Origin: Thermoflexales bacterium
GTDB taxonomy: Bacteria; Chloroflexota; Anaerolineae; J036; Brachytrichaceae
Direction of reading: 5' to 3'
Length of the DNA stretch: 37,544 bases
Assembly (NCBI GenBank): GCA_025057935.1
Contig: JANWUW010000073.1
Location: 1 to 37,544 of the forward strand
Part shown: positions 3,511-37,240 of the stretch, piece by piece
Layout: each line of letters opens with the position of its first letter
How positions within the stretch are numbered: the stretch's first letter is position 1
The notes under the pieces: model-generated
What the model saw: only the letters and a program-made list of their open reading frames with translations
Database searches by the model: none
What the model was told of the DNA's origin: nothing
Made by a program: the position numbers and the translations under genes

Positions 3511-6141
3511 ATGGCTGAAGGAAAGTCGCAGGTTTCGGTGAACGAGGAATATCTGGAGAAGTATGGCTTCGCCGAGCCAGAGAACTACGTCTTCAAGAGC
3601 CGCAAGGGGCTCGACGAGCAGATCATCAAAGAGATTTCGTGGATGAAGGGCGAGCCAGAGTGGATGACCAAGTTTCGCTTGGCGGCATTCGAGGTGTTCC
3701 GCAAGAAACCTATGCCGAACTGGGGCGGCGAGGCATTGAAGGATATAAACTTCGACGACATCTACTACTACATCAAGCCCACTGATCGTCAAGCGACGAG
3801 CTGGGAGGAGTTACCGCCCGAGATCAAGGAAACTTACGACCGGCTCGGCATTCCAGAGGCAGAGCAGAAGTATCTCGCAGGTGTTGGCGCGCAGTACGAG
3901 TCCGAGGTGGTGTATCACAACCTTGCTAAGGAGCTAGAGGCGAAGGGAGTGATCTTTCTCGACACCGACAGCGCGCTCAAAGAGTATCCAGAGTTGTTTC
4001 GGCAGTACTTCGGCACGATTGTGCCCTACACCGACAACAAGTTTGCGGCGCTGAATAGCGCGGTGTGGTCGGGCGGTTCGTTTATCTACGTCCCGCCGGG
4101 CGTCAAGGTTGAGATGCCGCTGCAGGCGTACTTCCGCATCAACGCGAGGAACGTCGGTCAGTTCGAGCGCACGTTGATCATCGTGGACGAGGGCGCGCAA
4201 GTGCACTACGTGGAAGGCTGCACGGCACCGGTGTATTCGAGCGATTCGCTGCACAGCGCTGTGGTGGAGATCATCGTGAAGAAGGGCGCTCGCTGCCGCT
4301 ACACAACTATCCAGAACTGGTCCACCAACGTTTACAACCTCGTCACGAAGCGCGCCGTTGCCTATGAAGGCGCAACGATGGAATGGGTGGACGGGAATCT
4401 TGGCTGCCTTGCAGAGGGCTCGACTGTGATAACGCCGGCTGGCGTCAAGCCTATCGAAGCGCTAGAAGTGGGCGAGCAGGTGCTTTCTTTCGACGAGCGG
4501 GCAGGGCGGTTGTGTTTCCGCCGAGTTGTGGCGAAGCGCTTCTCGGGTTACCAGCGCGTTTGCACGGTCTCCGTTGGTGAGCGCAGACTGCGCGTGACCG
4601 CGAACCATCCCTTCTACTCGTTTGTTTATCAGCCGGGCGCGCCGAAGAAGCTTGGTCGGTATAGGCTGGCATACGTTCGCGCCGACCAACTCAAGTACGC
4701 AATTGTGCCCCGGACATCGATTGACTACGGCAAGCCGTATGCGCTGGCGATGCCGTCGCTGGAGACCTTTTTCAGCTCACACAATCAGCACGTTTCTCAC
4801 TTCACCGCGTGCCGTCACCGCGAGGCGCGCTTGGCACAGCTCGTGACAACCACAGATGAAATCATGTGGTTGTTCGGTCTATGGCTGGGCGATGGAAACA
4901 TCGAGGTCAAGCAGTCACAAACTGAGGGTGTGATCCGCTGGGCGAAAGTCGGCTTTTCGGTGCCAGCAGGCGACCGAGCGCGAGAGCGCTTGATGTCCGC
5001 CATGGCGACTGTGATGAGCGCGAAGCCGAGCGAGCGCGCGGATGGGCGACACGTGTCGTGGAGCAGCAAGGAATTAGCAGAGCTGTTCCAGCGCAACGGC
5101 TTCAGAGGCGCCTCTGCAACCAAGCGCGTGCCGAGCTGGGTGTGGTCGTTGCCTGAGTCGCAGCGGCTCTCGTTCATCGCTGGCTATCTCGATGCGGACG
5201 GCTATGTTGCTGGCGGCAAGTTCCACTTGAAGTCTGTGAACCGCGCTTTGCTGGAAGATTTTGCTTCGCTGCTTGTCAATCTGGGGATTACGCCGCGCCT
5301 GTATGAGGAGTTCAGTGAGCCGCGAACTGTGACGGTGGCGGGGATTGAGTGCACCGCGCATGGCGCCTACCGACTTAGCTTCGCCCTTGACCCGCGCATT
5401 GTGCGACTTGTGAGTCCTGCTTTGCGACGGAAAGCTGAGCGGCAAATGCGCAAGCTTGCTCGCGGCAGGCGCGTAGGGCGGTCCAAGGTCGCCCTCAGCG
5501 AGGATGTTGAGGTTGTGCGTGTGAAAGTGTCTGAGCCTTCGGAAGAACTAGTGCCGACTTGGGACATTGAAGTGGAAGGCACAGGCAACTTTGTCTCTGA
5601 AGGCTTCATCGTGCACAACTCAAAGCTCACCATGAAGTATCCTGCTGTGTACTTGATGGAGCCCGGCGCGCATGGCGAGATCCTCTCGATTGCCTTTGCG
5701 GGCAAGGGGCAGCACCAAGACGCTGGCGGCAAGATCGTGCATGCCGCGCCGAACACCACCAGCAAGATCATCAGCAAGTCAATCAGCAAGGATGGCGGTC
5801 GCACCAGCTATCGTGGCTTGCTCAAGGTGTACCGCGATGCGGAGAACAGCCGCAGCAACGTGGTTTGCGACGCGCTCTTGCTCGATGAGCGCAGCCGCAG
5901 CGATACGTATCCCTATATCGAGGTGGACACCGACAAGGTGATCATCGGGCATGAAGCCAGCGTCAGCAAGATCGGCGAAGAGCAGCTCTTCTACGCCATG
6001 AGCCGCGGCATCAGCGAAGAAGAGGCGAGCACCATGGTCGTCTCCGGCTTCATCGAGCCGTTGGTGAAGGAGCTGCCGATGGAGTATGCCATGGAGATGA
6101 ATCGCTTGATCGCGCTGCAAATGGAGGGCACCGTTGGCTAA
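3511..6141 (+). CDS. sufB: Fe-S cluster assembly protein SufB with in-frame intein
   Basis: SufB is the scaffold subunit that binds the nascent cluster in the SufBCD complex. ATG 3511 is preferred because AAGGAGG (3494-3500) lies 10 nt upstream; a GTG at 3487 would put that site inside the gene. The 876-residue precursor contains a 405-residue intein (4405-5619). Removing it leaves 471 residues, the normal SufB size. The N-extein has LEKYGFAEPENYVF, typical of SufB, and the Cys of EGCTAP. The C-extein has SKLTMKYPAVYL, the Cys of VVCDALLL (matching the E. coli Cys405 region) and the closing EEASTMVVSGFIEPLVKELP block. Both exteins are intact and in frame, so a functional SufB is expected only after protein splicing. 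Operon position and partners SufC and SufD support the call. Confidence 0.97.
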   Translation: MAEGKSQVSVNEEYLEKYGFAEPENYVFKSRKGLDEQIIKEISWMKGEPEWMTKFRLAAFEVFRKKPMPNWGGEALKDINFDDIYYYIKPTDRQATSWEELPPEIKETYDRLGIPEAEQKYLAGVGAQYESEVVYHNLAKELEAKGVIFLDTDSALKEYPELFRQYFGTIVPYTDNKFAALNSAVWSGGSFIYVPPGVKVEMPLQAYFRINARNVGQFERTLIIVDEGAQVHYVEGCTAPVYSSDSLHSAVVEIIVKKGARCRYTTIQNWSTNVYNLVTKRAVAYEGATMEWVDGNLGCLAEGSTVITPAGVKPIEALEVGEQVLSFDERAGRLCFRRVVAKRFSGYQRVCTVSVGERRLRVTANHPFYSFVYQPGAPKKLGRYRLAYVRADQLKYAIVPRTSIDYGKPYALAMPSLETFFSSHNQHVSHFTACRHREARLAQLVTTTDEIMWLFGLWLGDGNIEVKQSQTEGVIRWAKVGFSVPAGDRARERLMSAMATVMSAKPSERADGRHVSWSSKELAELFQRNGFRGASATKRVPSWVWSLPESQRLSFIAGYLDADGYVAGGKFHLKSVNRALLEDFASLLVNLGITPRLYEEFSEPRTVTVAGIECTAHGAYRLSFALDPRIVRLVSPALRRKAERQMRKLARGRRVGRSKVALSEDVEVVRVKVSEPSEELVPTWDIEVEGTGNFVSEGFIVHNSKLTMKYPAVYLMEPGAHGEILSIAFAGKGQHQDAGGKIVHAAPNTTSKIISKSISKDGGRTSYRGLLKVYRDAENSRSNVVCDALLLDERSRSDTYPYIEVDTDKVIIGHEASVSKIGEEQLFYAMSRGISEEEASTMVVSGFIEPLVKELPMEYAMEMNRLIALQMEGTVG
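4405..5619 (+). other. SufB intein with LAGLIDADG homing endonuclease
   Basis: The insert starts at Cys1 (CLAEGSTVITPAG, block A) after extein GNLG and ends FIVHN before Ser+1 of SKLTMKYP. Splicing residues visible are Cys1, block B Thr65 and His68 (TANHPF), block F (TWDIEVEGTGNFVSEG), and His404-Asn405 with Ser+1. This is a class 1 arrangement. Between them lie two dodecapeptide motifs, LFGLWLGDGN (Asp163) and IAGYLDADGY (Asp265), with both catalytic acidic residues present, so the endonuclease looks intact. The length of 405 residues is normal for a bifunctional intein. SufB is a recurrent intein host, mycobacterial SufB being a well-known case. Self-splicing and DNA cleavage are inferred from motifs. 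Confidence 0.95.
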
Positions 6142-28263: not shown

Positions 28264-28277
28264 CCAAGAGCACAATT

Positions 28278-28446
28278 GAATACGCCGAGGTGACCCGGTG
28301 CCTGCACATGCAGGCTCAAAGGCCCGGATGCCAGGGCTTAAAGGTGGAAGCCGGTGCGAGTCCGGCGCTGTGCCGCAACTGTGATCGCGCTGCAATGCGC
28401 GTAAGCCAGGACGCTTGCCTCGGTGAGCTACGCGCAACCTTCTCGT
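28278..28446 (+). promoter_or_regulatory. Cobalamin riboswitch, copy 1
   Basis: This RNA aptamer binds adenosylcobalamin or a related corrinoid. The closing stem is CCGAGG (28285-28290) with CCTCGG (28418-28423). Inside are AAAGGTGGAAGCCGGTG, the stretch GTGCCGCAACTGTGA, and the B12 box AAGCCAGGACGCTTGCC (28403-28419). A conserved GCGCAACCTTCTCG follows. The first binding-protein gene downstream fits cobalamin control of its uptake. The sequence is almost identical to copy 2 at 30934. Confidence 0.95.
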
Positions 28447-28464
28447 GACCAAGGAGGTGAAGCG

Positions 28465-28482
28465 ATGATCAACGCACCTTGA
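28465..28482 (+). CDS. Five-codon mini-ORF in cobalamin leader 1 (MINAP)
   Basis: ATG ATC AAC GCA CCT TGA follows a perfect AAGGAGGTG (28451-28459) with a 7-nt gap counted from GGAGG. This is among the best Shine-Dalgarno sequences in the window, yet it serves only five codons. The corresponding ORF in copy 2 also has five codons and ends Ala-Pro-UGA. Proline just before UGA is a known slow-termination context, as in the TnaC leader. Translation is inferred only; the same bases also act in alternative pairings. Confidence 0.45.
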   Translation: MINAP

Positions 28483-28514
28483 AGTGTGCGTGGTGTTGGC
28501 TTTGTGACGTTTCA

Positions 28515-28546
28515 CGCTCTGCCGAGAAGGCAGGGCGTTTTCGTTT
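28515..28546 (+). terminator. Intrinsic terminator in cobalamin leader 1
   Basis: The 9-bp stem is CGCTCTGCC (28515-28523) with GGCAGGGCG (28529-28537), one G-T wobble and loop GAGAA, followed by TTTTCGTTT. It lies between the riboswitch and the first binding-protein gene, so it is likely the expression platform. Copy 2 has an equivalent hairpin with different stem bases, the same core loop bases and the same TTTTCGTTT tail. Confidence 0.88.
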
Positions 28547-28583: not shown

Positions 28584-29945
28584 ATGTCACGCACAGCATC
28601 TATCACCACTTTGAAACATCGTTTTTCGTTTGCTGCCACTGCGTTCCTTGTTGCGGCGCTGGCTGCTTGCGGTGCGCCTACCCCCACGCCTGCCCCGACC
28701 GCCACTGCCCCGACTGTGGCATCGACCGCGACTGTGGTCGCAGCCGCCACATCGGCGCCCGCGCCGACTCCGACTGCACCAACGGTCAACTTAACTGAAC
28801 AGTGCGTCGAAACCTACGATCCTGCGGTGGACTACTTCCCCGAGAAGGTCACCGTCGAGGACGCAACTGGGTTCACGGTGGAGTACTTCAAGCACTATAA
28901 GGTTGTCACGGTGCTTCAGCCATGGGCTGGTGCGAAGGAACAGTTTAAGTACGTCATCGTCCAATGCGGCACGCCCAAGCCAGAGGGCATCGAGAACGCG
29001 CTTGTGATCGAAGCGCCTGCAAACAAAGTGATTGCCATGAGCACCACTCACTTGCCGCATCTCGAGAAGCTTGAGCTGCTCGACCGCTTAATTGGCTTGG
29101 ACAGCTTTCTCTACGTCAACAACCCGAGAGTGCGCGAGATGATCCAAGCCGGCGGGTTGATCGAAATTGGCAGCGGCGCTGAGGTCAACGTTGAAAAGAC
29201 CATCGAGGCGCAACCCGATCTCGTGATGACGTATGGGGTGGGCGATCCCCAATACGATGCGCACCCGAAACTGCTGGAGGCGAAGATTCCCACAGTGATC
29301 AACGCAGAGTATGTGGAGGGCACGCCGCTTGGTCGCGCGGAATGGATCAAGTTCACAGCGCTGTTCTTTAACAAGGAGGGCAAAGCGCAAGAGGAATACG
29401 CTGGAATGAAGAAGCGTTACCTTGCGCTTGTTGAGAAAGTCAAGCAAGTGACCGATAAACCCGCTGTGCTTCAAGGCATAGCCATGAAAGATCAGTGGTT
29501 TGTGCCTGGTGGCGGTAGCTACGCAGCGCGCTTGATCCGCGACGCGGGTGGCGATTATCTTTGGGCGGATGACAACAGCCCGAGCAGCTTGCCGCTGAGC
29601 TTCGAGGCAGCCTACGAGCGCGCGGTGAAAGCGGACGTGTGGCTGCTCGCCAGCTTCCAGCGTTTCGACAGCCTCAAGGCGCTGCTCGAGGCTGAACCGC
29701 GCTACGCCGAGCTTGCTGCCGTGAAGAACGGCAGGGTCTGGAACTACGACAAGCGCGTCAACGAAAACGGCGGCAACGATTACTTCGAGAGCGGTGTCAC
29801 AAGCCCCGATCTCTTGCTTGCTGACCTCGTGAAGATCCTGCACCCTGAGCTGCTGCCCGAGCACGAGCTGGTGTTTTGGCGGCAGATTCCTGCAGCGTCT
29901 GGAACGAGCCAGAAGCTCGACGCTGACCGAATCGTATCACGTTGA
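28584..29945 (+). CDS. Corrinoid ABC transporter substrate-binding lipoprotein (BtuF-like)
   Basis: The 453-residue protein has a lipoprotein signal (FSFAATAFLVAALAAC, lipobox LAAC with Cys29) and an Ala/Pro/Thr-rich spacer. A lead domain follows with a Cys pair (EQCVETY and VQCGTP) and then a type III binding fold: KVIAMSTTHLPHLEKLELLDRLIGLD, EAQPDLVMTYGVGDP, GGSYAARLIRDAGGDYL and WNYDKRVNENGGNDYFESG. The fold is shared by B12 and siderophore receptors; the cobalamin riboswitch upstream favours a corrinoid. ATG 28584 is preferred over ATG 28563 because the paralogue at 31273 shares the context AAAGCCATGTCACGC. Starts further upstream would cross the terminator. It is closely similar to that paralogue. 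Confidence 0.88.
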   Translation: MSRTASITTLKHRFSFAATAFLVAALAACGAPTPTPAPTATAPTVASTATVVAAATSAPAPTPTAPTVNLTEQCVETYDPAVDYFPEKVTVEDATGFTVEYFKHYKVVTVLQPWAGAKEQFKYVIVQCGTPKPEGIENALVIEAPANKVIAMSTTHLPHLEKLELLDRLIGLDSFLYVNNPRVREMIQAGGLIEIGSGAEVNVEKTIEAQPDLVMTYGVGDPQYDAHPKLLEAKIPTVINAEYVEGTPLGRAEWIKFTALFFNKEGKAQEEYAGMKKRYLALVEKVKQVTDKPAVLQGIAMKDQWFVPGGGSYAARLIRDAGGDYLWADDNSPSSLPLSFEAAYERAVKADVWLLASFQRFDSLKALLEAEPRYAELAAVKNGRVWNYDKRVNENGGNDYFESGVTSPDLLLADLVKILHPELLPEHELVFWRQIPAASGTSQKLDADRIVSR

Positions 29946-29985: not shown

Positions 29986-30828
29986 ATGAACGCCAATCAA
30001 TTTCGCCGAATGTTCGCTCTTGTCATTGTCGCAAGCACTATCAGCGCTGCCACAATCGGTTCTGCACAAACGGCCTTGGCGCAAGGGCTGGGTTACGTGC
30101 GTGGCATTGCCTTTGAAGACACAAATGGCAATGGGAAGCGTGACCCGGCTGAGCCTGCGCTGAGTGTTGCTCGCTTCAAGATCACTGACGGCGGCAACTT
30201 CTGGCGCTGCGGCGCGGTGTTCGGCGAGACGCCTTACCAAGTCCCCCTTCGAGCAGGCACGTATTTTGTGATGCCGATCGCAGGTCCTGGACAATACCCA
30301 ACCGTGCCTGTGATCAGGGTGAGAGTCGAGCCCGGCAAATCTGTTGAAGCGAACTTGCCCTTCGGCTCGAATCCACTAGCGGTTGCAGAGAATTGCGGCG
30401 CGTATCAGCCGAAGCGAACCGCACGCGAGCCACTTGGGATTCCCGAGACTATTCTCAGCACCGGCTCGACCACCCTTGTGGGGCTGATAGAGCAAGCAGG
30501 GTTATTCGAAACCCTGAGCGGGCGCGGTCCGTTCACAGTGTTTGCGCCAACCGACTTGGCTTTCGCTCAGCTCACTGAGGAAGAGCTTGAGGCATTGCGC
30601 AACGATCGTGCGCGCCTTCGCTCAGTGCTTAACTATCACGTCGTGCCGGGCTTGTACAAGTCGGAGCAAGTTGCGAAGGCTTTGGGCTTAGGCACTGCGA
30701 ATGGCAAGCTCCTGGTCGTGCGAGTTGAAGATGGAGATGTCTTCGTTGGCGACGCGCGCGTCATCAAGACGGACATCGTTGCAGCAAACGGGGTGGTTCA
30801 CCTGGTTGACAGTGTGCTGCTACCGTAG
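29986..30828 (+). CDS. Secreted SdrD-B-like plus fasciclin domain protein
   Basis: The 280-residue protein starts at ATG 29986, five bases after AAAGGAGG, with a signal peptide (MFALVIVASTISAATIGSAQTALAQ is the hydrophobic area). Residues about 37-130 resemble an SdrD-B or prealbumin-like beta domain: VRGIAFEDTNGNGKRDPAEPALS is its acidic calcium-loop-type signature, followed by VPLRAGTYFV. Residues about 148-280 are a fasciclin (FAS1) domain with LVGLIEQAGLFETLSGRGPFTVFAPTDLAFA, LNYHVVPG, and the closing TDIVAANGVVHLVDSVLLP. Such proteins act in adhesion. It sits 40 nt after the first binding protein, so it should be under the first riboswitch. Its part in corrinoid uptake is unknown. Confidence 0.88.
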   Translation: MNANQFRRMFALVIVASTISAATIGSAQTALAQGLGYVRGIAFEDTNGNGKRDPAEPALSVARFKITDGGNFWRCGAVFGETPYQVPLRAGTYFVMPIAGPGQYPTVPVIRVRVEPGKSVEANLPFGSNPLAVAENCGAYQPKRTAREPLGIPETILSTGSTTLVGLIEQAGLFETLSGRGPFTVFAPTDLAFAQLTEEELEALRNDRARLRSVLNYHVVPGLYKSEQVAKALGLGTANGKLLVVRVEDGDVFVGDARVIKTDIVAANGVVHLVDSVLLP

Positions 30829-30920: not shown

Positions 30921-30933
30921 AAGTGATACAACT

Positions 30934-31102
30934 GAATACGCCGAGGTGACCCGGTGCCTGCGCGTGCAGGCTCAAAGGCCCGGATGCCAGGGCTTAAAGG
31001 TGGAAGCCGGTGCGAGTCCGGCGCTGTGCCGCAACTGTGATCGCGCTGCGAAGCGCGTAAGCCAGGACGCTTGCCTCGGTGAGCTGCGCGCAACCTTCTC
31101 GG
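30934..31102 (+). promoter_or_regulatory. Cobalamin riboswitch, copy 2
   Basis: The aptamer is nearly identical to copy 1. The closing stem is CCGAGG (30941-30946) with CCTCGG (31074-31079), and the B12 box is AAGCCAGGACGCTTGCC (31059-31075). The few differences fall mostly in peripheral hairpins and largely keep pairing (for example CTGCACATGCAG against CTGCGCGTGCAG). It precedes the second binding protein and the permease-ATPase-salvage genes, so this copy should control the transporter and probably the downstream cobinamide-salvage enzymes. Confidence 0.95.
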
Positions 31103-31123
31103 GATCAAGGAGGTGAAGCGAAG

Positions 31124-31141
31124 ATGCCACGTGCACCCTGA
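31124..31141 (+). CDS. Five-codon mini-ORF in cobalamin leader 2 (MPRAP)
   Basis: ATG CCA CGT GCA CCC TGA follows AAGGAGGTG (31107-31115). Relative to copy 1, three bases (AAG) are inserted before the ATG, and the reading frame into GCA-CCY-TGA is the same. Codons 2 and 3 differ but Ala-Pro-UGA is kept. The kept bases also form the anti-Shine-Dalgarno segment, so conservation alone does not prove translation. Confidence 0.45.
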   Translation: MPRAP

Positions 31142-31171
31142 AGCGTGCATGGCTTTGCTCTGGCACTTATG

Positions 31172-31203
31172 CACCCCGTCGAGAAGGCGGGGTGTTTTCG
31201 TTT
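31172..31203 (+). terminator. Intrinsic terminator in cobalamin leader 2
   Basis: The stem CACCCCG (31172-31178) pairs with CGGGGTG (31188-31194) around loop TCGAGAAGG and is followed by TTTTCGTTT. It corresponds to the terminator at 28515, with stem bases changed on both sides. It is the likely transcription-stop part of the second riboswitch. Confidence 0.88.
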
Positions 31204-31272: not shown

Positions 31273-32526
31273 ATGTCACGCAAATTCGAACTTCTGAATC
31301 GCGTACATCGTCCCGTTCTGTCGTTGCTGCTTGTAGCAGCACTAGCCGCGAGCACAGTACCTGCCCTTGCTGCGCCGGCGACGCGTGTCGAGGCACAAGC
31401 AGCCAATCTCACCGCTGGCTGCGTGAAGAACTACAGCCCCGCTGTAGATTACTTCCCGCGGAAGATAAGGGTTGAGGATGCCACAGGGTTCACAGTGAAG
31501 TACTTCAAGAACTACAAAGAAGTCACTGTGCTGAATCCTTGGCGTGGCGCGAAGGAGCAGTTCAAGTACATCCTCGTGCAATGCGGAACACCGGCGCCGA
31601 AGGGGATCAGGAATGCTTTCGTGATTGAAGTGCCGGTCAAGCGCATCATCGCTATGAGCACAACCCATCTGCCTCACCTTGATAAGCTGAACGTGCTTGA
31701 TCGCCTGATCGGCATGGACACCTTCAAGTACGTCAACAATCCCAAAGTGCGCGCCCTCGTACAAGCTGGCAACCTAATCGAAATTGGCGACGGTCCGAAT
31801 GTCAGCATCGAGAAAGTAATCGCATCGCAGCCTGACATTGTGATGACTTATGGTGTGGGCGATCCCAAATACGATTCCCATCCGAAGCTGCTTGAGGCAG
31901 GCATTCCCACGGTGATCAACGCTGAGTACATGGAAGGGACGCCGCTGGGCCGCTCTGAGTGGATCAAGTTCACCGCTCTCTTCTTCAACAAGGAGGCGGA
32001 AGCGCAGCGGGAGTATGCCAACATGAAGCAGCGCTACCTTGCGATTGCAAGAAGGGTGAAGAACGTGGCTAACCGTCCTCTGGTGTTGCAGGGCACGGCG
32101 ACCCGTGATCGCTGGCGCGTGCCTGGCGGAGGCAGCTACGCTGCGCGGCTCATCGCTGATGCTGGAGGCAAATATCTCTTCGCAAACAACAATGAAGCAG
32201 GTTCACTGTCGCTGACTTTCGAAGAAGTATACGCCCGCGCAGCAAGTGCAGATGTCTGGCTGCTCGCCAGTTTCCAGCGCTTCGACAGCATCCAGCAGCT
32301 TATCAACGCAGAGCCGCGCTACTCCGGAATGAACGCAGTCAGAAAAGGGCAGGTGTGGAACTACGACAAGCGCTTAAACGAGAACGGCGGGAATGACTAC
32401 TGGGAAACCGGCGTGGCGAATCCAGATCTCTTGCTTGCCGATCTCGTTAAGATTCTGCATCCGAGTCTCTTACCCAATCACGAGCTAGTGTTCTGGCGGC
32501 AGCTTTCAAGCGGACCGACGCAATGA
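31273..32526 (+). CDS. Corrinoid ABC transporter substrate-binding protein (BtuF-like), paralogue 2
   Basis: The 417-residue paralogue of the protein at 28584 shares its blocks, including AVDYFPRKIRVEDATGF, RIIAMSTTHLPHLDKL, QPDIVMTYGVGDPKYDSHPK, IPTVINAEYMEGTPLGRSEW and WNYDKRLNENGGNDYW. Unlike it, the signal (LLLVAALAASTVPALA, cleavage predicted near residue 33) has no lipobox Cys, and the low-complexity spacer is missing. It would be free, or anchored by an uncleaved helix. ATG 31273 has AAGAGGTG about 12 nt upstream. Its stop overlaps the permease start (ATGA), so this copy is the one joined to the transporter genes. Ligand assignment to a corrinoid rests on the riboswitch and the neighbours. 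Confidence 0.9.
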   Translation: MSRKFELLNRVHRPVLSLLLVAALAASTVPALAAPATRVEAQAANLTAGCVKNYSPAVDYFPRKIRVEDATGFTVKYFKNYKEVTVLNPWRGAKEQFKYILVQCGTPAPKGIRNAFVIEVPVKRIIAMSTTHLPHLDKLNVLDRLIGMDTFKYVNNPKVRALVQAGNLIEIGDGPNVSIEKVIASQPDIVMTYGVGDPKYDSHPKLLEAGIPTVINAEYMEGTPLGRSEWIKFTALFFNKEAEAQREYANMKQRYLAIARRVKNVANRPLVLQGTATRDRWRVPGGGSYAARLIADAGGKYLFANNNEAGSLSLTFEEVYARAASADVWLLASFQRFDSIQQLINAEPRYSGMNAVRKGQVWNYDKRLNENGGNDYWETGVANPDLLLADLVKILHPSLLPNHELVFWRQLSSGPTQ

Positions 32527-33614
32527 GCGCTCAAACAACACGGGCTGGCTGGGAATATGCCCCAGTCAGCCCTTTTCCAGTGCTGCGCATTCGTCGCAGC
32601 GTCTTGCTGCTGCTTGTTGTGCTCGCTGGCACAGCTTTTGCGTCGTCGCTGATGATCGGCGCCGTGAGCATTCCGCCTGGAGAGGTGCTGCGTGTGCTGC
32701 TGGGCGGTCAAGCCAGCAAAGACACTTGGCAGACTATCATTCTTACCTTCCGCTTGCCGAAAGCGATCACTGCTTTGTTCGCTGGCGCGGCGCTCAGCGT
32801 CGCTGGGTTGCAGATGCAAACGCTGTTCCGCAATCCGTTGGCTGATCCGTTTGTGCTGGGTGTCAGCAGCGGCGCTAGCCTAGGCGTAGCGTTGGTTGTG
32901 CTCGGGGGCACATCCGTCAGCGCTAGCGTCTTCGGGCGCACGGCGTTTCTGGGTGAAGTCGGCCTAGTTGGTGCAGCCTCGTTGGGCGCTGCTGCGGTAT
33001 TCGCTGTTGTGCTCGCCATCGCGCGCCGCGTGCAGAGCGCAGTCACGCTGCTGGTGCTCGGCTTGATGGTCAGCTATCTCACGAGCGCGGTCGTCAGCGT
33101 GTTGATCTACTTCAGCTTGCCCGAGCAAGTGAGCGCTTACATCAACTGGACTTTCGGCAGCTTTGGTGGCGTGACGTGGCAGCAAATGCGCGCCTTCGCG
33201 CCAGCGCTGCTGGTTGGGCTGCTGGCGGCATGGATCACAGTAAAGCCTTTGAACGCGCTGCTGCTGGGCGAGAACTACGCCCGCAGCATGGGGGTGAATG
33301 TTCGCGCAGTGCGCTGGTGGGTGGCGGCAAGCGCCTCGCTGCTTGCTGGCGTGGTGACAGCGTTCTGCGGACCGATCGGATTCATCGGGATCGCCGTGCC
33401 TCATCTGTGTCGGGCGCTGTTTGTGAGCAGCGATCATCGCATCTTGATGCCGACCTCAGTGCTGCTCGGTGGTAGCTTGGCGCTGATCTTCGACCTCATC
33501 TCACAGATGCCTGGCACGCAATACGCCCTGCCGCTCAATGTTGTGACTTCAGCCGTGGGCGCGCCAATTGTGCTGTGGATTGTTGCACGCCGACAGAGCT
33601 TCGGGAGGATCTAG
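32523..33614 (+). CDS. FecCD-family ABC transporter permease (BtuC-like)
   Basis: The 363-residue membrane protein has about nine or ten hydrophobic segments, as in BtuC and FecCD. Typical blocks are FRLPKAITALFAGAALSVAGLQMQTLFRNPLADPFVLGVSSGASLG, WTFGSFGGVTW, FCGPIGFIGIAVPHLCR (the cytoplasmic coupling loop region) and LPLNVVTSAVGAPIVLWI near the end. It would form the channel for corrinoid import with the ATPase at 33617 and the binding protein at 31273, whose stop it overlaps. Families importing iron-siderophores share this fold; the cobalamin riboswitch and the salvage genes downstream make vitamin B12 or cobinamide the likelier cargo. Confidence 0.93.
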   Translation: MSAQTTRAGWEYAPVSPFPVLRIRRSVLLLLVVLAGTAFASSLMIGAVSIPPGEVLRVLLGGQASKDTWQTIILTFRLPKAITALFAGAALSVAGLQMQTLFRNPLADPFVLGVSSGASLGVALVVLGGTSVSASVFGRTAFLGEVGLVGAASLGAAAVFAVVLAIARRVQSAVTLLVLGLMVSYLTSAVVSVLIYFSLPEQVSAYINWTFGSFGGVTWQQMRAFAPALLVGLLAAWITVKPLNALLLGENYARSMGVNVRAVRWWVAASASLLAGVVTAFCGPIGFIGIAVPHLCRALFVSSDHRILMPTSVLLGGSLALIFDLISQMPGTQYALPLNVVTSAVGAPIVLWIVARRQSFGRI

Positions 33615-33616
33615 CA

Positions 33617-34522
33617 GTGATCACAGAGTGGCAAGCAGCCGAGCACGTAGTGCATGAGCTGGGCCGCAATTCAAGGCATGCTGAAACAGATGGACACGTC
33701 TTTGGGAACGCACTACATGCTGCAGTCGCTGTGTATGCCAAGGACTTGACCACTGGCTATCGCCAAGGAGCGCGCGTGCGTGTGGTGCATCGAAGGCTTG
33801 AGCTTGCGCTGCCGCGCGGCAAGCTCACAGCGCTGTTGGGTCCGAACGGCGCAGGGAAGAGCACGTTGATGCGCACATTGGCTGGGCTGCAGCCAGCGCT
33901 GGCAGGCACGGTGTGGGTGGATGGCACGCCGCTGCGCGCACTCTCACTCCAGGCGATCGCGCGCAAGCTCGCCGTGGTCCTCACTGACCGCGTGGATGTA
34001 GGCTACGTGACGGCATACGCGCTTGCTGCGCTTGGTCGTTACCCGTACACGCGCTGGGATGGGCAGCTCACGCCCGAGGACGAGCAAATTGTCCAAGAGG
34101 CGATGCGCTTGGCAGGATGTAGTGAGTTGGCAGGACGCATGGTCGTTGAACTGAGTGACGGTGAGCGCCAACGGGTGATGATCGCTCGCGCTTTGGCACA
34201 ACAGACGCCCATCATCTTTCTCGATGAGCCAACGGCGTTCCTTGACCTGCCGCGCCGCGTCGAGGTCATGCACCTGCTGCGCAGTTTGGCGCATCAGACC
34301 AAGCGCGCGTTGCTGATCAGCACGCACGACCTCGAGCTTGCGCTGCGTTTTGCCGACTTGCTCTGGCTAATGGGCAGCGATGGCACATTTGTTGCAGGCA
34401 CGCCGACTGAATTGCTGCAACGCGGCGAGCTGCTGCGCGTCTTCGCTGCTGAGGGCGAAGAGGTGCAGCGATACCTGAAAGAAGTGCATCATCGCTGGCT
34501 TGCGGAAGGATCTGGCGCGTGA
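33617..34522 (+). CDS. ABC transporter ATP-binding protein (BtuD-like)
   Basis: The 301-residue ATPase should power the adjacent permease. It has Walker A GPNGAGKST, a Q-loop-region VVLTDRVDVGYVTAYAL, signature LSDGERQRVMIARALAQ (LSDGE, a common variant of LSGGQ), Walker B IIFLDEPTAFLD and the switch His in LISTHDLELAL. GTG 33617 is chosen because GGGAGG (33603-33608) lies 8 nt upstream and the codon is two bases past the permease stop. This start gives an unusual N-terminal stretch of about 36 residues, rich in His and Ala, before the ABC core at YAKDLTTGYR. A GTG just before that Tyr is an alternative start with no ribosome site. Its end overlaps the cbiA start (GTGA). Confidence 0.92.
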   Translation: MITEWQAAEHVVHELGRNSRHAETDGHVFGNALHAAVAVYAKDLTTGYRQGARVRVVHRRLELALPRGKLTALLGPNGAGKSTLMRTLAGLQPALAGTVWVDGTPLRALSLQAIARKLAVVLTDRVDVGYVTAYALAALGRYPYTRWDGQLTPEDEQIVQEAMRLAGCSELAGRMVVELSDGERQRVMIARALAQQTPIIFLDEPTAFLDLPRRVEVMHLLRSLAHQTKRALLISTHDLELALRFADLLWLMGSDGTFVAGTPTELLQRGELLRVFAAEGEEVQRYLKEVHHRWLAEGSGA

Positions 34523-35952
34523 GCCGCTCTAGCACGGCCGTTCCAACAGTGATCATTGCTGCGCCGCACAGCGGCAGCGGCAAGACCACTATTGCTGTTG
34601 GCTTGATCGCTGCGCTTGCTGCGCGCGGCTTGCGCGTTGCGCCGTTCAAGGTGGGCCCAGATTACATTGACCCATCGTTGCTGTCCCGAGCAGCGGGGCG
34701 CCCATGCTACAACCTCGACCTCTGGATGCTAGGCGAAGAGGCTGCGCGCGAGAGCTTTGCGCGACGCACGGCAGATTCCGACTTCGCTGTGGTCGAGGGC
34801 GTGATGGGCTTGTTCGACGGCGTCAGTGGCGACGACGACGCAGCGAGCACTGCGCATGTCGCTCGCGTGCTTGGCGCGCCAGTAGTGCTCGTGCTCGATG
34901 CCAGCGCCATGGCGCGCACTGCAGCCGCGCTCGTTTGCGGTTTGCGCGAGTTCGATCGCCGCGTTAACCTCGCGGGTGTGATCTTCAACCGCGTCGGCAG
35001 CCCAACGCATGCTCAGATGCTTCGCGAAGCTGTCGTCCGGCACACTGACGTTCGTCCATTGGGCAGTGTGCTGCGCAATGCAGCGCTCGAACGCTCAGAT
35101 CGGCACTTGGGGCTTGTGCCTGCGGCAGAAGATGATCCCTCCAAGTGGATTGCCGCTGCGCGGCAAGCAGTCGAGGCTGGCGTTGACCTTAACGCGTTAG
35201 TGGAGATTGCTGAGCAAAGCTGCCAATGCCCTCTGCCTCTTGCCACAAGCAGAAGAGCAAGCCAAGCGAGCAGCAGCTCGCCTGTCATTGCTGTTGCTCA
35301 TGATGCAGCTTTCAACTTCATCTACCCAGACAACCTCGAACTAATCGAGGAAGCTGGAGGGCGCGTGGTCTTCTTCAGCCCGCTGAGCGACTCAGGCCTA
35401 CCGACGGGCAGCAGCGCACTGATCTTGTGCGGCGGTTACCCTGAGCTTTTCGCAGAGCGGCTCGCGGCAAACGCGAGCATGCGTGCTGCAATTCGTCACG
35501 CTGCACAGAGCGGGATGCCGATCTACGCTGAGTGCGGCGGGCTGATGTACCTGTGCGAGGCGCTCGTTGACCAGCAGGGTCGGGCTTACCCGATGTGCGG
35601 CGTGCTTCCTGGGCGGTCAGTAATGGGCTCGCGTTTGGTGCTGGGCTATCGCACGGCGAGGGCGGAGCAGGACTGTTGGCTTTGGCGCGCTGGCGAGACC
35701 GTGCGCGGACATGAGTTTCACTACTCCACATGGCAAGCGGATGGCTCTTTGCCGCCGCTCTACACATTTGAGCCAAGCCGTTACCAACGCGAACCACGCT
35801 GCGATGGCGCTCGTGTTGGGAATGTGCTCGCGTCTTACTTGCATCTGCATTTTCTAGCGAAGCCCGAGCTTGCTGAGCGCATTGTGCATGCGGCTCAGGC
35901 TTGGCGTGATGCAACAGCTTCACTGACGGAAGCCCATGGACTTGTCTGCTGA
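34519..35952 (+). CDS. cbiA: Cobyrinate a,c-diamide synthase CbiA/CobB
   Basis: This enzyme amidates the a and c side chains of (hydrogeno)cobyrinic acid using ATP and glutamine. The 477 residues contain an N-terminal ATPase domain (APHSGSGKTT at 15-24, FKVGPDYIDP, VVEGVMGLFDG) and a C-terminal class I glutamine amidotransferase domain with the nucleophile Cys339 (YAECGGLMYL) and a late His (YLHLHFL). GTG 34519 overlaps the ATPase stop by 4 nt, showing coupling. CbiA and CobB differ by pathway (cobyrinate or hydrogenobyrinate substrate), which the sequence alone does not settle. It is the first enzyme gene after the uptake genes and overlaps cbiZ by 17 nt. Confidence 0.94.
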   Translation: MSRSSTAVPTVIIAAPHSGSGKTTIAVGLIAALAARGLRVAPFKVGPDYIDPSLLSRAAGRPCYNLDLWMLGEEAARESFARRTADSDFAVVEGVMGLFDGVSGDDDAASTAHVARVLGAPVVLVLDASAMARTAAALVCGLREFDRRVNLAGVIFNRVGSPTHAQMLREAVVRHTDVRPLGSVLRNAALERSDRHLGLVPAAEDDPSKWIAAARQAVEAGVDLNALVEIAEQSCQCPLPLATSRRASQASSSSPVIAVAHDAAFNFIYPDNLELIEEAGGRVVFFSPLSDSGLPTGSSALILCGGYPELFAERLAANASMRAAIRHAAQSGMPIYAECGGLMYLCEALVDQQGRAYPMCGVLPGRSVMGSRLVLGYRTARAEQDCWLWRAGETVRGHEFHYSTWQADGSLPPLYTFEPSRYQREPRCDGARVGNVLASYLHLHFLAKPELAERIVHAAQAWRDATASLTEAHGLVC

Positions 35953-36634
35953 GCCTCTCTTCCTTGGCGTGCTTCTGCGGCGCAGTCCTAAACGGCTGCA
36001 CATCGCGAGCGACCAGCCGCTGATGTGCCTGAGCTCTGCGCCTGTCGGCGGCGGTTGGGCGAAGGCACAGCACATTCTGAACATGCGTGTGCCGTTGGAC
36101 TACTGCTGCGATCGCTACGTCGAAGACATTCAGCGCATGGCGGCTGAGGCTGGCGTCAGCGAGCCGTTCGTTGGGCTGATCACCGCCGCGAGGCTCGAAG
36201 ACGCTGGGCTATATGTGGAACGCTTCGATCAGGGCGCAGTTGCGGCATTGGTGACGCTGGGCATCAGCCTGCCGACAGCTGCAGGACGCGAAGAGAGCGT
36301 GCGCGCGGAGGTCAGCCAGCCCGCAGGCACAATCAACATCATCGTCGTAGTTGACGCAGCGCTATCGCCTGCTGCGCAGGTGAACGCTGTGATCACAGCA
36401 ACCGAGGCGAAGAGCTTGGTGCTCGCCGAGCACAACGTGCGCACGCCCAAAGGGCATTTGGCAAGCGGCACGCCGACAGATTGCGTGGTGATCGCATGCA
36501 CAAATCGAGGCGCGCGCTTTGCGTTTGGCGGACCCATTTCGCCGATTGGCGCGCTGATTGGTCGTGCTGTGCGGGTTGCCACGGAACAAGCCCTGCACGC
36601 CTGGCGTAGGCACACTTCTTCTACCTCAAGCTGA
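35936..36634 (+). CDS. cbiZ: Adenosylcobinamide amidohydrolase CbiZ
   Basis: CbiZ removes the aminopropanol tail of adenosylcobinamide to give adenosylcobyric acid, a salvage and remodelling step found in archaea and some bacteria. The 232-residue sequence shows family blocks: LSSAPVGGGWAKAQHILNMRVPLDY near the N-terminus, FVGLITAAR, NIIVVVDAALSPAAQVNAVITATEAK, and the C-terminal GTPTDCVVIACTNRG followed by FGGPISPIGALIGRAV. It begins inside the 3' end of cbiA (17-nt overlap), so the two are tightly linked. Its presence suggests that the cell imports incomplete or foreign corrinoids and rebuilds them. Confidence 0.93.
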   Translation: MDLSAEPLFLGVLLRRSPKRLHIASDQPLMCLSSAPVGGGWAKAQHILNMRVPLDYCCDRYVEDIQRMAAEAGVSEPFVGLITAARLEDAGLYVERFDQGAVAALVTLGISLPTAAGREESVRAEVSQPAGTINIIVVVDAALSPAAQVNAVITATEAKSLVLAEHNVRTPKGHLASGTPTDCVVIACTNRGARFAFGGPISPIGALIGRAVRVATEQALHAWRRHTSSTSS

Positions 36635-36643
36635 TGAGAAGCG

Positions 36644-37240
36644 ATGAATGACACAACCGAGCTCTACTCCACTCCAGAAGCAAAAGCGTTGCGCGAGCAA
36701 GCGCGTCGCAATCGCAAGCGCAAGGGGCTGGTGATCGTCAACACTGGGGATGGCAAAGGCAAGACCACTGCGGCGCTGGGCATTCTGCTGCGCGCGTGGG
36801 GACGCGGGATGCGCGTTGGCGGCATTCAGTTCTTCAAGCACGAGACCGCGAAGTTTGGCGAGCTGCGCGCGCTTGAGAAGATGGGCATCTCCCTGCGCCC
36901 CATGGGTGATGGATTCACGTGGACCAGCAAGGACTTAGACGAGACCAAAGCCAAAGCGCTCGCTGGCTGGGAAGAGGGCAAGCGAATGATCACCAGCGGC
37001 GAATACGACATCGTGCTGCTGGACGAGTTCACGTATGTGATGCACTTTGGTTGGCTTGACCCAAACGAGGTTGTAGCCTGGCTGCGCGACAACAAGCCTG
37101 AGATGCTGCACGTCATCATCACTGGTCGCCACGCTCCACAAGCCTTGATTGACTTCGCCGACCTAGTGACCGAGATGAAGCTGATCAAGCACCCACTACG
37201 GGACCAAGGCATCCTAGCGCAGCCCGGGATCGAGTTCTGA
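36644..37240 (+). CDS. cobO: Corrinoid adenosyltransferase, CobA/CobO type
   Basis: The enzyme transfers the adenosyl group of ATP to the cobalt of cob(I)yrinic acid a,c-diamide or cobinamide. Its 198 residues match the CobA/CobO/BtuR family. A basic N-terminus (RRNRKRKG) leads into the P-loop [10 protein letters not shown] (35-42 for GDGKGKTT), then [33 protein letters not shown] with the Walker B-like acid pair, and [25 protein letters not shown] 36644 is nine bases after the cbiZ stop. CbiZ acts on adenosylated cobinamide, so this neighbour would supply its substrate. Confidence 0.95.

Follow-up and report, generated by a model that had tools for sequence, protein, structure and literature searches.

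The window analyzed here, a stretch of 37,544 nucleotides of DNA from a Thermoflexales bacterium, carries two tandem cobalamin riboswitches, each of which is followed by a strong Shine-Dalgarno (SD) sequence, an open reading frame (ORF) of exactly five codons and an intrinsic terminator. As judged from the conservation of its sequence, this mini-ORF is a real coding element, conserved and tied to the riboswitch. The best explanation, which we hold with moderate confidence, is that it acts as a ribosome-loading and pausing device ahead of the terminator. In the textbook view, a riboswitch has a direct target, either a terminator or the ribosome-binding site of the gene itself; a conserved mini-gene between switch and terminator would join sensing, ribosome loading and transcription termination in one short leader.

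Results

Two leaders of the same design

Both aptamers score above the RF00174 gathering cut-off of 31.5 bits (Table 1), and the elements 3′ of them follow the same order: CCTTCTCG, a loop of 5 nucleotides, AAGGAGGTG, the five-codon ORF, a spacer of about 30 nucleotides, the intrinsic terminator and the gene. A predicted anti-SD/SD hairpin (CCTTCTCG...AAGGAGG) thus stands directly after each RF00174 match. The stabilities calculated for the terminators are about −18.6 kcal/mol (28514-28538) and −19.2 kcal/mol (31171-31195). The SD sequence AAGGAGGTG fits the canonical 16S 3′ end, and GGATCACCTCCTT, a candidate 16S 3′ end, is present in the genome. AAGGAGG occurs 8 times within the window for 2.4 copies expected, and hence is not unique to the leaders. 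The loop L5 of the aptamers is invariant (UGUGCCGC), and a complementary loop for an L5-L13 kissing interaction was not found by inspection.

Table 1. Features of the two riboswitch leaders and of the genes behind them (window coordinates)
Feature	Position	Strand	Remarks
Cobalamin riboswitch aptamer, copy 1	28276..28436	+	Rfam RF00174, 45.3 bits, match over full length
Cobalamin riboswitch aptamer, copy 2	30932..31092	+	Rfam RF00174, 44.3 bits
CCTTCTCG, copy 1: anti-SD strand of the expression-platform hairpin and candidate antiterminator strand	28438..28445	+	
CCTTCTCG, copy 2: anti-SD and candidate antiterminator strand	31094..31101	+	exact complement of CGAGAAGG, 31180-31187
Shine-Dalgarno AAGGAGGTG, copy 1	28451..28459	+	GGAGG-to-ATG gap 7
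Shine-Dalgarno AAGGAGGTG, copy 2	31107..31115	+	gap before ATG 10
Mini-ORF copy 1, MINAP-stop (ATG ATC AAC GCA CCT TGA)	28465..28482	+	kept in homologues
Mini-ORF copy 2, MPRAP-stop (ATG CCA CGT GCA CCC TGA)	31124..31141	+	
Possible hairpin, copy 1	28472..28491	+	28472-28477 (mini-ORF 3′ half) with 28486-28491 (post-stop)
Possible hairpin, copy 2	31130..31151	+	31130-31136 (mini-ORF 3′ half) with 31145-31151
Intrinsic terminator, copy 1	28514..28546	+	GAGAA loop and T-run
Intrinsic terminator, copy 2	31171..31203	+	T-run
BtuF-like periplasmic binding protein gene, copy 1	28584..29945	+	Pfam PF01497, E=7e-29
BtuF-like periplasmic binding protein gene, copy 2	31273..32526	+	Pfam PF01497, E=2e-27
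Rest of B12 uptake/remodelling cluster: FecCD permease, ABC ATPase, CobB/CbiA, CbiZ, CobO	32523..37240	+	Pfam

Every coordinate in the original prediction is correct, and it had described the SD as far stronger than the sites of the genes downstream. This is indeed so, as the gene starting at 28584 has no SD and that starting at 31273 has a weaker and distant one. The Pfam content of the cluster (Peripla_BP_2 twice, FecCD, ABC ATPase, CobB/CbiA, CbiZ, CobO) shows that the riboswitch targets in the window are B12-related; similar genes stand behind many homologous leaders. A gene for a fasciclin-domain protein (window 29986-30828) lies between the two riboswitch-controlled BtuF-like genes.

Conservation of the five-codon ORF

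Homologous leaders were sought with RF00174 in 60 relatives, 41 genomes of family f50 and 26 of family f86. They were collected regardless of any ORF, and 111 distinct ones were chosen on the anti-SD/SD hairpin. The window's own family, f1, appears to be Roseilinea/Thermoflexales-like (class Anaerolineae) and f50 to be Chloroflexaceae-like (class Chloroflexia). When 84,980 species were scanned for a B12 box with CCTTCTCG and AGGAGG behind it, 27 stretches matched, all of them in Chloroflexota (Thermoflexales, Candidatus Roseilinea, Oscillochloris and other Chloroflexaceae, Anaerolineaceae).

The ORF is exactly five codons long in 31 of the 34 f1 leaders that bear a start codon, a count that takes in two related Anaerolineae, and in 25 of 46 f50 leaders; the leaders are related to one another and these counts are not independent events. 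Shuffling of the sequence 3′ of the ATG gave means of 1.0 (maximum 6) and 0.8 (maximum 5), respectively, and the other two frames yielded 0-1 such ORFs. Furthermore, 49 of 100 homologous leaders from all families carry M-x-x-[A/G]-P-stop with its start at this same place (shuffled mean 0.04, maximum 1), with the consensus M-[I/P/T/A]-[R/N]-[A/G]-P-stop. Among these 49, codon 3 specifies Arg 31 times and Asn 13 times, and the stops are 33 TGA, 11 TAA and 5 TAG. Arg is encoded by CGC, CGT, CGA or AGA; Ala at codon 4, replaced by Gly in five leaders, by all four of its codons (GCA/GCC/GCG/GCT); and Pro at codon 5 likewise by all four (CCG/CCC/CCA/CCT). In f1, the first and second bases of codons 4 and 5 lie at 0.2-0.8 bits, and the positions 3′ of the stop are near saturation (1.7-2.0 bits). 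The gap from GGAGG to ATG is 6 nucleotides in 47 of 59 leaders.

The MPRAP peptide of window copy 2 is present, with other codons, in other Chloroflexota (L077, L087, L124, L183, L184, L196, L231), and the same peptide end is written with differing codons across two classes (CGT GCA CCC TGA, AGA GCA CCG TGA, CGC GCT CCA TAA). That one peptide is spelled by differing codons in two classes is hard to account for without selection on the peptide.

The comparison that had been suggested as a check, of SD, ATG, ORF length and proline before the stop in related Chloroflexota, is therefore clearly positive. The core idea of the original prediction, that the riboswitch may control ribosome loading on a mini-ORF whose translation affects termination, survives through this conservation. 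Its emphasis on UGA does not: Pro before UGA had been singled out, and what is kept is Ala/Gly-Pro-stop with any of the three stops, usually after Arg or Asn.

Conservation of the 3′ half might have another origin. If the mini-ORF were translated but its 3′ half kept mainly for pairing with the post-stop segment, as in amino-acid attenuators, the ribosome would open the ORF/post-stop hairpin and thereby change termination, and the identity of the peptide would matter little. The ORF together with the following segment is more stable than shuffles (mean z −1.1, s.e.m. 0.18-0.24), and RNAalifold retains six pairs in nearly all 14 sequences of the window clade, mostly with one-sided changes. However, covariation is no higher than in shuffles, members with MINGP disrupt a pair yet retain [A/G]-P-stop, the ORF-region alignment of Chloroflexaceae-type leaders gives no consistent hairpin (RNAalifold, only 3 pairs), and the second helix that such a device requires, to the 5′ arm of the terminator, shows no advantage over shuffles (mean z +0.36). 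Moreover, a need for pairing would not leave every Pro codon and every stop in use. We thus consider it unlikely that pairing is the main reason for the conservation; a hairpin between the ORF 3′ half and the post-stop segment is plausible from the folding models of the window clade, and is not general.

Specificity for the riboswitch

The f50 genomes were searched with the strict MxRAP-stop pattern GGAGG-N4-8-ATG-NNN-CGN-GCN-CCN-TRA. All of the 17 matches in the 41 genomes lie within about 60 bases 3′ of an RF00174 match on the same strand, and the reversed control of the pattern gave one match. A looser MxxAP-stop pattern in f1 was found 13 times, each time behind a B12 riboswitch, with a single further match in another family. 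This ties the ORF to the riboswitch; it is not a general leader.

The SD hairpin and the terminator

In the minimum free energy folds, the SD is paired with the CCTTCT strand in all 111 leaders, for which the hairpin was the selection criterion. Ribosome access is therefore the natural output of the aptamer in these predictions. The same pairing would be expected of an ordinary class I B12 riboswitch with an intrinsic terminator, in which the SD-like purines serve only as the hairpin's 3′ strand and a mini-ORF would be incidental. In keeping with this, other Anaerolineae families have a CCTTCGCGGAAAGGGGG hairpin and then a terminator, mostly without a mini-ORF, and several Chloroflexaceae-type leaders retain the hairpin without a start codon or with a long ORF. 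Left unexplained, however, are the five-codon length in 31 of 34 leaders, the fixed SD-ATG spacing, the three kinds of in-frame stop and the synonymous changes of the Ala and Pro codons, which make an incidental ORF quite improbable. The alternative offered earlier, that the SD is merely a pairing partner, is thus right about the pairing and, given the positive conservation check, insufficient alone to explain the ORF. It is very improbable that the mini-ORF is a constitutive sensor of release-factor or ribosome state through which termination answers translation stress as well as B12: arrest peptides commonly respond to some condition, and the end that is conserved here is prone to stalling, but with the SD masked in the riboswitch hairpin B12 and translation would not be independent inputs, and no sensed condition is known.

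The original prediction had missed that CCTTCTCG, which pairs with the SD, is also complementary to CGAGAAGG, the loop and 3′ arm of the terminator. The complementarity is exact over 8 nucleotides in both window terminators (28523-28530, 31180-31187), and exact or nearly so in the close relatives. Terminators of the GAGAAGG type number 2 in the genome, solely at these two leaders. In the f1 leaders, the complement of CCTTCTCG in the terminators measures 5.5 nucleotides on average versus 3.8 for permuted strands, with 3 of 280 permutations as good. The match loses strength in f50, where 14 of 280 permutations equal it, and in f86 there is none (141 of 280), though some f86 leaders have mini-ORFs. 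An antiterminator formed by CCTTCTCG would therefore be limited to certain clades, and either the others use another link or the link is wrong. In transcripts cut before completion of the terminator, CCUUCUCG is predicted to fold onto CGAGAAGG; once fully transcribed, the terminator by itself exceeds the predicted ribosome-on alternatives in stability. CCTTCTCG can thus either cover the SD or disrupt the terminator, and a ribosome bound at the SD would tip the balance towards disruption of the terminator.

A trp-type attenuator with mutually exclusive 1:2, 2:3 and 3:4 helices finds no support. Its 1:2 helix is modest (mean z −0.70), and its 2:3 helix, the antiterminator that would join the post-ORF segment to the terminator 5′ arm, is not more stable than shuffles (mean z +0.36).

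Discussion

We propose that the first target of the cobalamin riboswitch would be ribosome access to the conserved five-codon leader ORF. With B12 bound, CCUUCUCG would pair with the strong SD, ribosome loading would be blocked, the terminator would form and the B12-uptake gene would be off. In the absence of B12, the SD would open and a ribosome would start on the mini-ORF and pause at the end of M-x-(R/N)-(A/G)-P-stop, with slow release of peptidyl-Pro, especially after Arg-Ala or Arg-Gly. The loaded ribosome would stop CCUUCUCG from pairing again with the SD and, in the window's clade, the freed CCUUCUCG may pair with CGAGAAGG in the terminator as an antiterminator. Translation of the mini-ORF, slow release or stalling at its end, dependence on B12 and antitermination are steps that we infer. 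A point against loading and pausing as the explanation is that a ribosome at the stop codon would cover the SD only partly.

We regard it as possible, and tentatively so, that M-x-R-[A/G]-P-stop is a minimal termination-arrest peptide, five residues long and under riboswitch control, the ribosome parked at the stop being the antitermination device. Asn in place of Arg in 13 of the 49 leaders speaks against the arrest reading, and window copy 1 has Asn, so that only the Pro-stop argument applies there. Should it indeed stall release, the peptide would rank with the shortest arrest peptides found in nature.

The closest known system is the ppe2 switch of M. tuberculosis, in which a riboswitch controls a translated upstream ORF, uPPE2 (Kipkorir et al. 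2024, PMC11260477). Both have a B12 aptamer and, past the B12 box, a hairpin in which the SD of an upstream ORF is bound by an anti-TIR strand, and the switch of ppe2 is said to act first on the upstream ORF. It differs in that this ORF overlaps the start of ppe2 and acts by termination-reinitiation, whereas the window leaders have five codons with a conserved stall-like end, followed by an intrinsic terminator and a spacer before the gene. The TnaC leader has Pro before the stop, acts on Rho-dependent termination and is longer than the mini-ORF. With TnaC and the trp and his leaders, the window leaders share a leader ORF with an SD ahead of a terminator and, as in TnaC, the Pro-stop end; however, the regulated step here would be ribosome loading instead of codon supply or a bound amino acid.

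The R-A-P or R-G-P end and its position upstream of the regulated gene also recall the RAPP/RGPP arrest peptides (ApdA, ApdP, ApcA, and SecM with RAGP). RAPP arrest peptides have RAP, placed in the P site, as their core (PMC10951233), RGPP works too as an arrest motif, and Arg is described as irreplaceable in RAPP-type arrest (PMC12992588). Ala and Gly alternate in both, and R-A/G-P-stop corresponds to the first three residues of the motif with the stop replacing the last Pro. Copy 2 and many homologues end in R-A/G-P-stop and copy 1 in N-A-P-stop, not in R-A/G-P-P (or RAPG/RAGP). The known peptides are long, usually secreted, and have a sense codon after RAP, whereas the whole mini-ORF peptide has five residues, the stop comes next and Arg is often replaced by Asn. 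A C-terminal Pro is reported to slow peptide release (PMC7246954, citing Hayes 2002 and Pierson 2016).

In the literature searched, mostly outside subscription journals, we found no earlier description of such a riboswitch-linked mini-ORF; tiny ORFs behind riboswitches are easily overlooked. Should the peptide stall release, its natural variants (R or N, A or G, three stops, five-codon length) would form a test set for the minimal nascent chain that slows termination.

Variant leaders and downstream genes

In the leaders with MIRAP-stop, the gene behind the riboswitch (L041:507-1460, L043:508-1560, L048:546-1514, L051:518-1510, L053:556-1527, L054:571-1560, L062:536-1513) encodes a protein of 320-350 amino acids with an alpha-alpha toroid signature (squalene-hopene cyclase/prenyltransferase models). 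Weak matches to PF01122 (eukaryotic cobalamin-binding protein) fall under the cut-off of that model; from sequence, it may be a bacterial transcobalamin-like B12-binding protein.

In L124 (G426:C280; contig 4423-4450, 5320-5348), two divergent B12 riboswitches have a mini-ORF each (MARAP-stop, MPRAP-stop). One f86 genus (L150, L151, L152, L155, L167) retains the start and an MxDAP-like beginning and has lost the stop, so that the ORF crosses the terminator region; the f50 leaders L191, L194 and L198 read MARAPA... or MARVPA... without a stop. Different short ORFs (MAQGP-stop, MIRIPLD-stop, MAHFRP-stop) at times come behind the related hairpin CCTTCGCGGAAAGGGGG in the thinly sampled Anaerolineae that do not belong to f1 (e.g. 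L006, L009, L070). Finally, Flexilinea L095 has the same hairpin and SD immediately before cobO, with no mini-ORF and no terminator seen; the module can therefore also work as a plain translational switch.
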